DNA of 32,302 bases from a virus. Shown here in pieces: positions 15,065-28,016 of the stretch. Made by a program: the position numbers and the translations under genes. The stretch is from positions 1 through 32,302 of IMG/VR virus record IMGVR_UViG_3300032288_001889; one strand, written 5' to 3'. The notes beneath the pieces were generated by a model. It saw only the letters and a list, made by a program, of their open reading frames with translations, made no database searches and was not told where the DNA came from. How positions within the stretch are numbered: the first letter of the stretch is position 1; each line of letters opens with the position of its first letter.

Positions 15065-15175
15065 AAGTGAGAACAGGATTCGAACCTGTATGATATACAC
15101 TTTGCAGGCAACCTAATCAATGATTCAAGGCTGTATATCTTACCACATTAGCGTCTACCGTTCCGCCATCTCACT
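15065..15175 (-). tRNA. tRNA-like gene, Leu-type D-arm, abnormal anticodon region
   Basis: Acceptor AGTGAGA/TCTCACT (7 bp), Leu-style D-arm (TGGCGGAACGGTAGACGC) and a perfect T-arm (ACAGG, TTCGAAT loop, CCTGT) in correct order; no CCA encoded, discriminator T. The gene is 111 nt, about 20 too long. Between D- and T-arms lie 11 nt and then a 48-nt hairpin with a perfect 8-bp stem (15092-15099 with 15132-15139). Strict counting from the D-arm puts TAA (Leu) at 34-36 but with G33 and no anticodon stem. It is a degenerate, interrupted or specialised tRNA; the isotype is uncertain. Confidence 0.6.
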
Positions 15176-15278
15176 ATGTCGCTCGTCTTTCCGAGCCGTC
15201 ACCAAGTTTATCAAGGTGGGAATTAGTCAAAGCGATATCTAGCTTATTTTACCACAGGAAACAATGGTTAAAACTTAG

Positions 15279-15367
15279 TAGTCAGGACAGGATTCGAACC
15301 TGTAGTCAGGGTTTCTCACCCATAATGTGCATTGCATTCATTGCGTTTACCATTTCGCCACCTGACT
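15279..15367 (-). tRNA. tRNA-like gene, Leu-type, weak anticodon stem
   Basis: Acceptor AGTCAGG/CCTGACT, discriminator A, D-arm TGGCGAAATGGTAAACGC of Leu style, T-arm ACAGG-TTCGAAT-CCTGT, and a variable arm GGGT/ACCC: 89 nt, class II. Strict counting puts CAA (Leu) at 34-36, but position 33 is G and only three of five anticodon-stem pairs form. A shifted 4-bp stem AATG/CATT closes a different loop. The variable region repeats CCTGACT, the 3' acceptor strand. Transcribed first from the promoter at 15378-15408. Confidence 0.65.
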
Positions 15368-17764: not shown

Positions 17765-18036
17765 TCCTTGATCCTCCAGACGTGCTCGTTCTTTCCATAC
17801 AACCCCATGCTCTTCTTCTCAGTCTTGATGAGATACCCTTCGCTCGTCAGGTTTGTGAGCGAGCGGCGGACAGAGGTGATGGGGTAGTAATGGTTAAGGG
17901 CGACGTAGATCTGGGAAGGTTGAAGTTCTTGGAAATTTTTAAATAGGCACAGGATCACCGCCTCCTGTTTCTCGGCCTTGTTGATGCTGTTTATCAGCTC
18001 GTTTCCGTACTCGTTTAGTGTGTTGTAGTATGTCAT
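17761..18036 (-). CDS. Small winged-helix protein
   Basis: 91 aa. Residues about 22-88 fit a winged helix: AVILCLFKNFQELQPSQIYV, then YYPITSVRRSLTNLTSEGYL as recognition helix, then a beta wing ending HVWRI. Coupled to both neighbours by ATGA overlaps. Such proteins in phage operons are often local regulators; its target is unknown. Confidence 0.7.
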   Translation of the reverse strand: MTYYNTLNEYGNELINSINKAEKQEAVILCLFKNFQELQPSQIYVALNHYYPITSVRRSLTNLTSEGYLIKTEKKSMGLYGKNEHVWRIKE

Positions 18037-18911
18037 TCTTCAAAATTTAAATCTAGTTCTGTTTGATTTCTTTCGGATAGATCGTTTATTCCGCACATCC
18101 CGTTGCACTCAAACAACGGCTCTACCTTTCTTATAGGCATATCATCCAAGCACCTGTTGTTCGGATATTTAGGGTTGTGCTTGAGGAAGACAAGGATACC
18201 CTTGACGTCCGTCTTCATTCTCTCTTTTGCCTCGTTGGACTGGTCCTTCAGCATCGTCACAGGCTCACCCTTAAGTTCGGTCAGCTCATGCTCTAGGTCA
18301 GCCATCACGTTGAACTTGTCCGGGAAGTCGACCTTCATCTTCTGCCAGTAGCCGACACCTCCCTGAACACATCCGGTAGAGAAGCAGTTGTTGTTCTGGA
18401 ATCCTAGCTTGTACATGACAGGGATCTCTATGCCGTGTTCTTCTATAATTCGTAGACAGTCTTTCTTGTCGTAGGCGTAGAACATCAAAGGGTAGATAGC
18501 CTTGACCCTCTTGCCGTGGTTCATCGTCATCGACAGTGCGCGGTTCATCTCCTTCTTGTCAAACTCAAAGCCGAACACCTGATGCTTGAACGTGTTAGCC
18601 TTCTCCCACTTCTCCCTTACAAGTCGCTTCAGGTTGGTGGAGCATATGGCACCCGTCGCCGTGTTGAGTGACTTGTGCTTTCTCCATACATCAAATATGT
18701 TCCCGTACTTTTCTCCAATCCCGGTTATCACCTCTATCTCTATACCGTACCATGCCTCGCAGTCCTTCTTGAAGCGGTAAGTGTCTGGGTGCTCGTTCTG
18801 GGTATCAATCATTATTACCCTACAGCTGTCTTGGCCGTACAGGTCGATCGCAATCTTACACGCAACGGCGGAGGTTATCCCACCGCTCCACCAGCATATT
18901 ATATCTTTCAT
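18033..18911 (-). CDS. PAPS-reductase-family PP-loop ATPase
   Basis: 292 aa. The PP-loop SGGITSA lies at 9-15 after a beta strand (IICWW), followed by VIMIDTQNEHPDTYRF, the PAPS reductase fold. Cysteines at CSTNLKR, NNCFSTGCVQGG, NRCL and CNGMCG could carry a metal or persulfide. Phage members of this family are common and may act in sulfur chemistry or nucleotide/tRNA modification rather than sulfate assimilation; no partner genes for either are visible here. The SGG(I)TS loop is intact, so adenylation should be possible. Confidence 0.8.
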   Translation of the reverse strand: MKDIICWWSGGITSAVACKIAIDLYGQDSCRVIMIDTQNEHPDTYRFKKDCEAWYGIEIEVITGIGEKYGNIFDVWRKHKSLNTATGAICSTNLKRLVREKWEKANTFKHQVFGFEFDKKEMNRALSMTMNHGKRVKAIYPLMFYAYDKKDCLRIIEEHGIEIPVMYKLGFQNNNCFSTGCVQGGVGYWQKMKVDFPDKFNVMADLEHELTELKGEPVTMLKDQSNEAKERMKTDVKGILVFLKHNPKYPNNRCLDDMPIRKVEPLFECNGMCGINDLSERNQTELDLNFEE

Positions 18912-21434: not shown

Positions 21435-21821
21435 TTTTACTATTTCAATTAACTTTTTTAGACAAGCAAGTTCTGCTTCTTCGTATGTGTTATAACCCAT
21501 TTTGAAATGACGTTCTTCAAGTGTTCCATATTCATATACTATTTCCCACCTATACGAATATCCACCATCCGCCTCTCCATGCCTGTTAATACTTGCGTCT
21601 GATAACTTTTTATCTCTAAACCATCTAAACGCTTGTTGGTATAGTGGTGCTGTTATTATGTTGTATATCTGATGAAATCCATTTTTTGAATTAATTATGG
21701 GATATTCTAATACACTCCTACATAACTTTTCTTCTTTATCATAATAACTTAAACAAGGTTCATCAAACCCAAGCTGTTTAAGTTCTAATGTTTGTTCGTA
21801 TGGAATAAATTCTTTGTTCAT
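21420..21821 (-). CDS. Hypothetical 133-aa protein, conserved phage family
   Basis: EFIPYEQTLELKQLGFDEPC, TAPLYQQAFRWFRDK and NTYEEAELACLKKLIEIVK are the conserved blocks of a small family found throughout Bacteroidota phages and prophages; its function is unknown to me. Ends GGDK. Starts in junction copy 4. Confidence 0.75.
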   Translation of the reverse strand: MNKEFIPYEQTLELKQLGFDEPCLSYYDKEEKLCRSVLEYPIINSKNGFHQIYNIITAPLYQQAFRWFRDKKLSDASINRHGEADGGYSYRWEIVYEYGTLEERHFKMGYNTYEEAELACLKKLIEIVKGGDK

Positions 21822-24591: not shown

Positions 24592-24599
24592 AAACTACA

Positions 24600-24641
24600 G
24601 CCCCGCCACGAAAGTGAGCGGGGCTTTCGCAGTATAAAACA
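24600..24641 (+). other. Intergenic GC hairpin E1
   Basis: GCCCCGC/GCGGGGC 7-bp stem, one bulged A on the 3' side, CAC/GTG upper stem, GAAA tetraloop; tail TTTCGCAGTATAAAACAA. Same architecture as 25867, 27159 and 27976. The T-run is short for a terminator. Confidence 0.7.
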
Positions 24642-24656
24642 ATTAATTTTTTCACC

Positions 24657-25019
24657 ATGAAAGTAGAACTTAACATCGGATTGGGAAACAATCCTTTTGA
24701 CGCGTCAAGCGCAGCAATGCTAGCAGCTAACGTGCTAACAAAGAACGGCGCAACAGAACTTGTGTTCCGCACCTCGCAGGGCACCTACGAAGAGAATGCG
24801 GAGCCTAACGTCATCATGAAGTTTGAATGGGATGTCGAGGGCGCCAAAACGTTCCACGGTATGTCGTTCCAAGACCTGCTCGAGGCGCTCGCAGTCATCA
24901 TGACTCAAGAGTGTATCGCCTTCTACGTTCCGGAATGGAAAGACGGCGGGCTGACCTACCGGACAGGTTTTGAAGGCGAACGTTACGACTTCGACCTTCA
25001 GTACTTCGAGCGTTGGTAG
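24657..25019 (+). CDS. Hypothetical 120-aa protein
   Basis: MKVELNIGLGNNPFDASSAA start, helix AAMLAANVLT, then EPNVIMKFEWDV and a mid helix FQDLLEALAVIMTQECIA, an alpha-beta fold typical of a common phage family. A/T-rich leader. Its TAG is 6 bp upstream of hammerhead ribozyme 1. Function unknown. Confidence 0.7.
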   Translation: MKVELNIGLGNNPFDASSAAMLAANVLTKNGATELVFRTSQGTYEENAEPNVIMKFEWDVEGAKTFHGMSFQDLLEALAVIMTQECIAFYVPEWKDGGLTYRTGFEGERYDFDLQYFERW

Positions 25020-25025
25020 GTTCAA

Positions 25026-25075
25026 GGTTAACTGATGAGTCCTAAGTGGACGAAACGCCGTGAGGCGTCTTAACC
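25026..25075 (+). ncRNA. Hammerhead ribozyme 1 (type I)
   Basis: Stem I GGTTAA (25026-25031) with TTAACC (25070-25075); core CTGATGA (25032-25038); stem II GTCC-TAAGT-GGAC (25039-25051); GAA (25052-25054); stem III ACGCC-GTGA-GGCGT (25055-25068); C at 25069. All invariant core bases are present. Predicted cleavage after 25069, between the 120-aa gene and the 44-aa gene. Confidence 0.93.
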
Positions 25076-25097
25076 AAAAAAAAAATCCATATAAAAA

Positions 25098-25232
25098 ATG
25101 AAAACATTCACTCTCATCGCGTCACTAGCATGCATGGTGACAAGCGCAGTAATCGCTGACCTGTTCCTGTTCGGGATATCCGTAGTGTCAGTGTTCAGTT
25201 CAATTCTATTAAACTTTCAAAAGACTAAGTAA
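25098..25232 (+). CDS. Small membrane protein (44 aa)
   Basis: MKTFTLIASLACMVTSAVIA followed by DLFLFGISVVSVFSSILL and a short basic tail (NFQKTK): two hydrophobic segments separated by one Asp. The ATG follows a run of A after the ribozyme. Either a two-helix membrane protein or a signal sequence plus anchor. One base separates its stop from the next ATG. Function unknown. Confidence 0.65.
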   Translation: MKTFTLIASLACMVTSAVIADLFLFGISVVSVFSSILLNFQKTK

Positions 25233-25233
25233 C

Positions 25234-25512
25234 ATGGACAAATTTGCAAGACTAGACACGGCGACAGGTCGTGGAATGAACGAGGGCTACTGCGTCAACG
25301 ACGGCGAGGCTTACTTCGAAAACGAGAGCGACCTTATCGCTTACCTACGCAACGAGTGCAACGTTGATGAGAACAACGAACTCAGCGACGAGTTCATCTT
25401 GAACGAGGCTTATAACGTCGAGACCTACTACTACACCGAGTGGGACGCGGACGATGAGGACACCTACTACATTGAGGTCGAGGGCAAGTGGCTCGAGGTC
25501 CTGCAAGGTTAA
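25234..25512 (+). CDS. Very acidic 92-aa protein, possible DNA mimic
   Basis: 25 of 92 residues are Asp or Glu against 5 Lys/Arg, a net charge near -20, with acids and aromatics spread along the chain (ETYYYTEWDADDEDTYYIEV). The start GRGMNEGYCVNDGEAYFENE is typical of a small phage family of unknown function. Such charge in an early operon recalls antirestriction DNA mimics like Ocr and ArdA, but no family motif is visible. Its TAA is part of the GGTTAA stem of hammerhead 2. Confidence 0.65.
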   Translation: MDKFARLDTATGRGMNEGYCVNDGEAYFENESDLIAYLRNECNVDENNELSDEFILNEAYNVETYYYTEWDADDEDTYYIEVEGKWLEVLQG

Positions 25513-25565
25513 CTGACGAGGCTTCATTAGCCGAAACGTGAGGTTGTGCGCCTCACGTATTAACC
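25507..25565 (+). ncRNA. Hammerhead ribozyme 2 (type I)
   Basis: GGTTAA (25507-25512)/TTAACC (25560-25565); CTGACGA core, allowed because position 7 is variable; stem II GGCT-TCATT-AGCC; GAA; stem III ACGTGAGG-TTGTGCG-CCTCACGT (25536-25558); A at 25559. Predicted cleavage after 25559 (GTA site). The stop codon of the acidic protein is inside stem I. Confidence 0.9.
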
Positions 25566-25583
25566 AATTTAAATAATACAATT

Positions 25584-25856
25584 ATGAAGAATCAAGTAAC
25601 TAAAGAATCTCTGCAAGCAGAGCTAACTGCAAAAGAGTTTGCAATGTTAGAAGAAATCATCTCATGGTATAGCTTCGACGACAACGTATGCTTTGTACGT
25701 GAAACTAGCAGTTCTGAAAAGGGGCTTATCACTCAACTGAAAAATAAAGAGTTGATATATAACTCCTTTGAAGGTATGGGGCAAGAGGGTTATGAGCGCT
25801 CTAATTGGTACCCATGCGATTTAGTTCTTGACGCCTACTGCCTTGAGCATTACTAA
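25584..25856 (+). CDS. Hypothetical 90-aa protein, winged-helix-like
   Basis: Helix LTAKEFAMLEEIISWYSFDD, then SEKGLITQLKNKELIYNSF, which has the recognition-helix-to-wing form of small regulators, and an acid/aromatic end (LVLDAYCLEHY). It is AT-richer than its neighbours. Lies between hammerhead 2 and hairpin E2. Regulator role is a guess. Confidence 0.6.
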   Translation: MKNQVTKESLQAELTAKEFAMLEEIISWYSFDDNVCFVRETSSSEKGLITQLKNKELIYNSFEGMGQEGYERSNWYPCDLVLDAYCLEHY

Positions 25857-25866
25857 TGAAATCACA

Positions 25867-25910
25867 GCCCCGCCACGTATTGTGAGCGGGGCTTTCGTGG
25901 TAGAAAACAA
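25867..25910 (+). other. Intergenic GC hairpin E2
   Basis: GCCCCGC/GCGGGGC, bulged A, CAC/GTG, loop GTATT; tail TTTCGTGGTAGAAAACAA. Nearly identical to E1 in stem sequence. Confidence 0.7.
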
Positions 25911-25926
25911 ATCAAATCAAATCACA

Positions 25927-26055
25927 ATGAAAAAAGTTATCGCACTAGCAATCATCATCATTGCGCTCGCGTCATGCAGCACCAAGAAACTTACCCACTC
26001 ACACTACACCAAGGGGGTCACTCACGGGCAGGACGGCTGCGCTTGGCACCGATAG
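25927..26055 (+). CDS. Small lipoprotein (42 aa)
   Basis: MKKVIALAIIIIALASCSTK: Lys-rich start, hydrophobic core and a LASC lipobox, so cleavage before Cys17 and lipid attachment are expected. The mature part is only ~26 residues, His/Lys-rich (LTHSHYTKGVTHGQDG). ATG 25927 is preferred to an upstream in-frame start inside the previous gene. Could be a spanin-like or surface-exclusion peptide. The last G of its TAG is the first base of hammerhead 3. Confidence 0.7.
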   Translation: MKKVIALAIIIIALASCSTKKLTHSHYTKGVTHGQDGCAWHR

Positions 26056-26112
26056 GTTAACTGATGAGTCCTAGATGGACGAAACCTAGAGCGCAAGCCC
26101 TAGGTCTTAACC
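26055..26112 (+). ncRNA. Hammerhead ribozyme 3 (type I)
   Basis: GGTTAA (26055-26060)/TTAACC (26107-26112); CTGATGA; stem II GTCC-TAGAT-GGAC; GAA; stem III ACCTAG/CTAGGT (26084-26089, 26100-26105) topped by GC-GCAA-GC with a GNRA tetraloop; C at 26106. Predicted cleavage after 26106. Confidence 0.93.
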
Positions 26113-26130: not shown

Positions 26131-26508
26131 ATGGGATTTTTCAGTTGGAAAACATCGGACACGCACGAGTCCATCAGCAACACGTACTCGAAAAGGGGTA
26201 CATTCAAGGTGCACATGCTAACACCAAGTAGTCGTTACGTGGAAGACAGCTACGAGGGCTACGGCGTCTTCGGAGGCAAGGACTTCTACGAACTTGTTTA
26301 CGAACTCAACAAGGACCTTTACCTTGGGGACGACAACTGCGAGAGCAGAATCAAGGGTATCATGATGGCGCACGACAAGGCGCTGGAAGGCAAGCTAGTG
26401 CTGCCACGTTTCGCTGAGTTAGCGGACAGCAAATACGAAGACCTAGCGGACAGCGATAACTGCCCCGACCAAGGCTACTTCTACAACAACAATTTTTACA
26501 AATCATAA
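26131..26508 (+). CDS. Hypothetical 125-aa protein, conserved phage family
   Basis: MGFFSWKTSDTHESISNTYS and YEGYGVFGGKDFYELVYELN are the signature of a widespread phage family with unknown function. The following RIKGIMMAHDK and a C-terminal acidic/aromatic segment (SDNCPDQGYFYNNNFY) complete it. Leader AATAAATAAAAAAAAGCC follows hammerhead 3 directly. Confidence 0.8.
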   Translation: MGFFSWKTSDTHESISNTYSKRGTFKVHMLTPSSRYVEDSYEGYGVFGGKDFYELVYELNKDLYLGDDNCESRIKGIMMAHDKALEGKLVLPRFAELADSKYEDLADSDNCPDQGYFYNNNFYKS

Positions 26509-27152: not shown

Positions 27153-27158
27153 TACCAA

Positions 27159-27201
27159 GCCCCGCCGCGTAAAGCGTGCGGGGATTTGGCGGTAGAAACA
27201 A
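27159..27201 (+). other. Intergenic GC hairpin E3
   Basis: GCCCCGC/GCGGGG(A), bulged T, CGC/GCG, loop GTAAA; tail ATTTGGCGGTAGAAACAA. Compensatory change CAC/GTG to CGC/GCG relative to E1 and E2. Confidence 0.7.
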
Positions 27202-27975: not shown

Positions 27976-28016
27976 CCTCGCCATCCTTCGGGAGGCGGGG
28001 TTTTGGTGGTAGAAAG
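27976..28016 (+). other. Intergenic GC hairpin E4
   Basis: CCTCGCC/GGCGGGG (one T-G pair), bulged A now on the 5' side, TCC/GGA, TTCG tetraloop; tail TTTTGGTGGTAGAAAG. Sequence differs from E1-E3 but the fold is kept. Confidence 0.65.

Follow-up and report, generated by a model that had tools for sequence, protein, structure and literature searches.

Three predicted type I hammerhead ribozymes between small phage genes, probably members of a widespread compact class

Clustered hammerhead ribozymes in prophages were described by Perreault et al. (2011), who proposed that they process transcripts into single-gene mRNAs; they observed in vitro cleavage for three tandem arrangements and cleavage in E. 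coli for one (PMC3088659). In the clusters presented there, e.g., a triple array in Agrobacterium tumefaciens and further ones in Azorhizobium caulinodans and Clostridium scindens, several hammerheads flank single genes or short blocks, as is the case in the phage DNA studied here. The proposed role is common to both, but cleavage has been shown for the arrays of Perreault et al., whereas it is predicted for ours; further, ours are all of the same compact type, with 6 bp in stem I, 5 nt in loop II and an A on either flank, and probably derive from a Bacteroidota phage. A second related system in the same text is HHphage of the haloviruses HF1 and HF2, a phage hammerhead in an early operon, followed after 13 nt by a start codon, for which a transcript 5′ end maps at most 3 nt from the cleavage site (PMC3088659). 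Unlike our hammerheads, HHphage is described as having a variant core, lies upstream of one helicase gene and belongs to a haloarchaeal host. The initial annotation had called a tandem intergenic series which partitions an operon unusual. This could not be upheld, since clusters and the partition idea had been published in 2011 (PMC3088659) and such loci were numerous among the matches listed by our scans, with up to 10 copies per record. The array is a case of an already known kind, namely clustered phage hammerheads: where at least two close copies flanking phage genes would be looked for, three occur in 1.1 kb among plus-strand ORFs.

The window, meaning the whole stretch of DNA analyzed, is the 32.3-kb virus record IMGVR_UViG_3300032288_001889 (32,302 nt). 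It contains phage portal and terminase genes whose closest matches are found in Flavobacterium and Cellulophaga phages, and its primase carries a BT4734-like domain. For these reasons, Bacteroidota are the likely hosts, as judged from gene content, and the phage is related to Flavobacterium and Cellulophaga podoviruses. A DNA-level search of deposited phages detected no close relative of the window. A 64.7-kb relative, here called G001, holds an orthologous stretch with four hammerheads.

The three motifs were examined by pattern search, folding and a covariance model. This model, R1, was built from an alignment of 52 hammerheads of other viral contigs, which had been fetched with a pattern silent on stem I and included no sequence of the window. 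In the alignment, 13 of 15 pairs vary on both sides; complete pairing had been a selection criterion, so these pair counts weigh less. The motifs are:

25026-25075, plus strand: HH1, type I hammerhead; predicted cleavage 25069/25070; R1 68.6 bits, E 6e-18
25507-25565, plus strand: HH2, type I hammerhead; predicted cleavage 25559/25560; R1 56.0 bits, E 3.6e-14
26055-26112, plus strand: HH3, type I hammerhead; predicted cleavage 26106/26107; R1 55.3 bits, E 5.7e-14

Positions, strand and spacing within 1.1 kb are as initially annotated, and the cleavage sites given there (25070, 25560 and 26107) agree with the predicted ones. The core CUGANGA...GAAA is intact and exact in all three, and each has a stem II of 4 bp with a 5-nt loop. 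The annotated type I core, the shared stem I (GGUUAA/UUAACC, identical in all copies), the A-U-closed stems III of unrelated sequence and the C or A at the cleavage site were likewise confirmed: H17 is C, A and C in HH1, HH2 and HH3, giving the triplets GUC, GUA and GUC, all of the NUH type. Covariation within the window, also claimed originally, holds for stems II and III but not for the invariant stem I. In MFE folds and R1 alignments, stem I is open and stems II and III are loop-closed in a three-helix topology; the MFE fold is exactly the hammerhead secondary structure in each case (z of −2.5, −3.8 and −3.3 for HH1, HH2 and HH3). The hammerhead pattern search of the window gave three matches on the plus strand and none on the other. 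A structural descriptor recovered all three, with a single match in 200 dinucleotide shuffles of the window searched on both strands. The bare core pattern CTGANGA...GAAA was found six times against 2.9 expected, which is not significant; the significance therefore comes from the stems. By sequence and predicted fold, HH1 to HH3 are type I hammerhead ribozymes, and self-cleavage is predicted for them.

A search with the Rfam models, proposed earlier as a check in which a missing hit above threshold would count as refutation, had a divided outcome: none of the three exceeded a gathering threshold, which taken literally would refute them, while R1, trained on other phages, gave scores of 55-69 bits. 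Rfam's Hammerhead_1 (RF00163) shares type I topology and core with HH1, but at an E-value limit of 1 HH1 reached 29.5 bits, below the gathering cut-off of 34. At the same limit, HH3 was a weak match as type III, again below the gathering threshold, and had no Hammerhead_1 match, and for HH2 no match was listed. Further, R1 detected 50 hammerheads in 20 related loci (L134-L153), and not one of them attained any Rfam gathering score. Because R1 recognizes all three motifs, their failure in Rfam reflects a shortcoming of the Rfam models. Consequently, annotation which relies on the gathering thresholds of Rfam overlooks this class of phage hammerheads, and its abundance is probably underestimated.

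The initial annotation placed each hammerhead between small genes. This is right, as the flanking ORFs are co-oriented on the plus strand, but it understates how closely stop codons and ribozymes are interlaced. The ORFs are:

24657-25019, plus strand: ORF of 120 aa upstream of HH1; weak match to phrog_11722 (E 4.5e-4)
25098-25232, plus strand: ORF of 44 aa, first after HH1; conserved in G001
25234-25512, plus strand: ORF of 92 aa; its TAA stop (25510-25512) coincides with the final three bases of HH2 stem I
25584-25856, plus strand: ORF of 90 aa after HH2; an unrelated gene takes its place in G001
25927-26055, plus strand: lipoprotein-like ORF of 42 aa with a hairpin upstream and HH3 downstream; homolog in G001 (L090)
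26131-26508, plus strand: ORF of 125 aa after HH3; not at this place in G001

The TAG stop of the first ORF (25017-25019) lies 6 nt before HH1 stem I, and the counterpart of this ORF in G001 extends to the TAA inside HH1 stem I. HH3 stem I shares its first G with the TAG stop (26053-26055), as the final base of that codon, of the upstream lipoprotein-like ORF, whose LPAM_1 match (E 0.0016) is below the LPAM_1 cut-off. From the cleavage site to the next start codon, the leader comprises 28 nt for HH1 and 24 nt for both HH2 and HH3. As claimed initially, the hammerheads are placed such that the predicted cleavage would give gene-sized transcript units.

Comparison with G001 showed how the ribozymes change in a relative. 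In stem II of HH3, two base pairs have changed in a compensatory manner (UCC/GGA versus GUC/GAC), and an A-C mismatch in stem III of HH3 is G-U in G001. HH2 has the same stem III, with differences in loop II and N7 only, and HH1 differs in one base of the stem III loop. In the same stretch, whole genes are swapped or inserted directly after each of the three hammerheads; the stretch 25234-25512 is 95% identical in DNA.

A second kind of intergenic element, GC-rich hairpins placed like the hammerheads, was observed in the same operon and is also present in G001:

24599-24625, plus strand: GC-rich hairpin AGCCCCGCCAC...GTGAGCGGGGCT in the gap before the hammerhead block; fold −21.8 kcal/mol, z −5.3
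25866-25893, plus strand: similar GC-rich hairpin after the gene following HH2 and before the gene upstream of HH3; fold −20.9 kcal/mol, z −4.4

Further hairpins with CCCCGC-like stems are located in gaps at 27158-27184 and about 27978-28000. None of the four is a typical terminator, since a proper U-run is lacking. In front of the gene MKVELNIGLGNNPF..., the gap is filled by a hammerhead in G001 (L164, 2866-2919) and by a GC hairpin in the window (24599-24651); because the same gap is occupied by either, the two spacer types can replace each other. Many adjacent gene junctions of the operon have no ribozyme, and separation is therefore not needed for every gene. Promoters between the hammerhead-flanked genes were also considered and dropped, as the scans gave no support: no promoter-like or terminator-like excess was found in the hammerhead region, and a promoter pattern of the Bacteroidota type matched only once, far downstream.

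Scanning relatives for the same spacers, as suggested initially, was productive. The same kind of spacer recurs, and at least about 400 distinct hammerheads were found; almost all belong to phage contigs, a single record has as many as 10 copies, and the copies of a record invariably share one strand. A match was present in 45 of 47 records searched whole (10 in G031, 9 in G005, 7 in G006 and 5 in G004). Among loci with two or more copies, all lay on one strand in 90 of 90 cases, at a median spacing of 518 nt. Deposited phages with a member include Cellulophaga phi19:3 and phi18:3, Flavobacterium elemoF 6-3D and Agrobacterium OLIVR1. The hammerhead of phi19:3 and phi18:3, found in this analysis, is not part of the record's annotation; in phi19:3, a phage of Cellulophaga baltica #19, it is located at 21768-21818 on the minus strand, and the annotated upstream gene gp051 terminates within its stem I, as seen in the window, but both phages have one copy per genome and, unlike the window, represent a cultured phage-host pair.

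Conservation of the core was assessed with a search that specified the two arms of stem I (G[GA]UUAA ... UUAA[CU]C at a distance of 34-70 nt) and left the core open. This returned 292 candidates with a perfect core, four with one change (U4C in every case) and none with two, while the remaining candidates resemble the chance background of a reversed control. As a core pattern had been used to fetch most of these loci, a fairer picture is given by the 33 arms outside that pattern, of which 29 have a perfect core and four carry U4C. Based on the arm-search counts and their background, the sequences argue that the catalytic core is kept by selection. The U4C variant is described in PMC3088659 as retaining sufficient activity in vivo to permit viroid infectivity. 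Positions outside the search pattern are conserved as well: in cases with a 6-bp stem I, an A stands directly before stem I in 355 of 367 (97%) and directly after it in 353 of 367 (96%), and loop II reads U-N-A-N-U. The conserved A/A at the end of stem I and this loop would be compatible with a peripheral contact between stem I and loop II. When stem I was left unspecified in the scan, it was again 6 bp long in 48 of 59 hammerheads, with many different sequences.

The geometry of stop codon, ribozyme, leader and AUG is uniform in the survey. Among 301 hammerheads with a clear upstream ORF, the stop ends between −6 and +10 relative to the start of stem I in 262; these stops include the TAA of stem I (96), the TGA of CUGA (44), a TAG sharing the first G (40) and an abutting TAA (32). 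Stops at +6, +10 and +20 are inherent in the ribozyme sequence, and TTAA was also set by the search pattern. Of 333 hammerheads, 312 contain stops in two or more frames and 173 in all three, the third frame being closed by loop II. The close fit of stop and ribozyme is therefore partly a consequence of the motif itself; stops at −6 to +1 (118/301) are not explained in this way. Downstream, the distance from cleavage site to AUG has a median of 22 nt (quartiles 21 and 25). An upstream stop together with a downstream AUG on the same strand was observed at 217 of 290 hammerheads versus 13.6% of random positions. With stem I unspecified, the architecture is similar, but the leader is somewhat longer and more variable (median 27.5). 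The leader is rich in A, especially at −12 (82%), −3 (70%) and −6 (58%); A at −3 is a positive determinant of initiation in Flavobacterium johnsoniae (PMC6847099). In the literature searched (most subscription journals lay outside it), we found no description of this stop and leader geometry, and we claim no priority for it. As a separate observation, the hammerheads of one locus (L072 of G006) are followed by a conserved repeat, aaaagtcaggtgcagactataacagg, instead of a short leader.

With a probability of roughly 0.7, we propose that HH1 to HH3 are members of a widespread compact class of type I hammerheads which form spacers in small-gene operons of dsDNA phages and whose transcripts cut themselves. 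The polycistronic RNA would cut itself at each hammerhead spacer while being transcribed. From hammerhead chemistry, we infer that the upstream mRNA would keep its stop codon and end in the folded stems II and III of the ribozyme, carrying a 2′,3′-cyclic phosphate, and that the downstream mRNA would start with 5′-OH-UUAACC, about one ribosome footprint before its AUG. The short, unstructured, A-rich leader (24-28 nt in the window) would suit Bacteroidota initiation without a Shine-Dalgarno sequence. The purpose may be to obtain independently translated, end-defined, gene-sized mRNAs. Tandem phage hammerheads do cleave in the experiments mentioned above, but 4 of 18 consensus hammerheads were inactive in vitro, and in 2011 it was stated to be unclear what hammerheads of bacteria and phages precisely do (PMC3088659). 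The uniform geometry, i.e., a stop at or in stem I, the ribozyme, an A-rich leader of about 22 nt and the AUG, which recurs in some 300 hammerheads and in arrays with as many as 10 copies, makes the function testable, and the members in the cultured phages phi19:3, phi18:3, elemoF and OLIVR1 open the class to specific, cheap tests. A ribosome terminating at the stop codon would cover stem I and the core and may thus delay ribozyme folding. A more far-reaching version is tentative and probably goes too far: upstream translation would gate cleavage, and the freed one-footprint leader would serve the next gene in a translation-interlocked module. If true, termination, cutting of the RNA and re-initiation would be linked at one gene after another along the array.

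Other readings of the hammerheads were weighed against self-cleaving spacers. Cleavage might mainly tune RNA decay, acting as a built-in stabilizer or destabilizer which sets the relative amounts of neighboring proteins. The unusual ends are generally known to change access of 5′- and 3′-dependent nucleases, and GC-rich hairpins fill equivalent gaps of the same operon; however, decay tuning alone explains neither the constant 22-nt leader nor the overlap with stop codons, and we regard it as unlikely to be the main role. A recombinational role, in which hammerheads mark the borders of exchangeable gene cassettes and are kept as recombination homology, draws on the gene exchange right after all three hammerheads in G001 and was also prompted by counts of junctions with homology on one side. 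Yet both neighbors are conserved in 16 of 118 pairs with a hammerhead versus 52 of 265 without (gap of at least 20 nt; p = 0.19), i.e., turnover is similar at control junctions and no marked excess is seen; moreover, neither the catalytic core nor compensatory pairs would be maintained by recombination on its own. Consequently, cassette borders were rejected as an explanation and are quite improbable. The related idea that a hammerhead always stays with its upstream gene holds between the window and G001, but generally 120 pairs had homology upstream only and 77 downstream only, with similar stem III likeness, and it was likewise abandoned.

Slightly more improbable still is that segments between hammerheads are circularized or re-ligated through their 5′-OH and 2′,3′-cyclic phosphate ends. 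Such ends would suit RtcB-type ligation, as is generally known, but none of 32 phage records encodes RtcB, while the positive control was found in 9 of 14 genomes; a host ligase could take its place. Spliced or circular products were sought by Perreault et al., and none were found (PMC3088659). Finally, the absence of a match at Rfam gathering thresholds could suggest chance matches or decayed relics. This reading has a negligible probability and is refuted by the shuffles, the R1 E-values (6e-18 to 6e-14) and the conservation with compensatory changes in relatives.

Two features outside the hammerhead region were noted in passing. On the minus strand, a 111-nt tRNA-like RNA (15065-15175) adjoins tRNA-Leu(CAA) at 15278-15367; it was not called by ARAGORN and has about 50 nt in place of the normal anticodon/variable region, while its acceptor, D and T arms match the Rfam tRNA model (35.8 bits). 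Also on the minus strand, a phage-encoded phosphoadenosine phosphosulfate reductase-like gene is located at 18033-18911 (phrog_424, E 8e-53).
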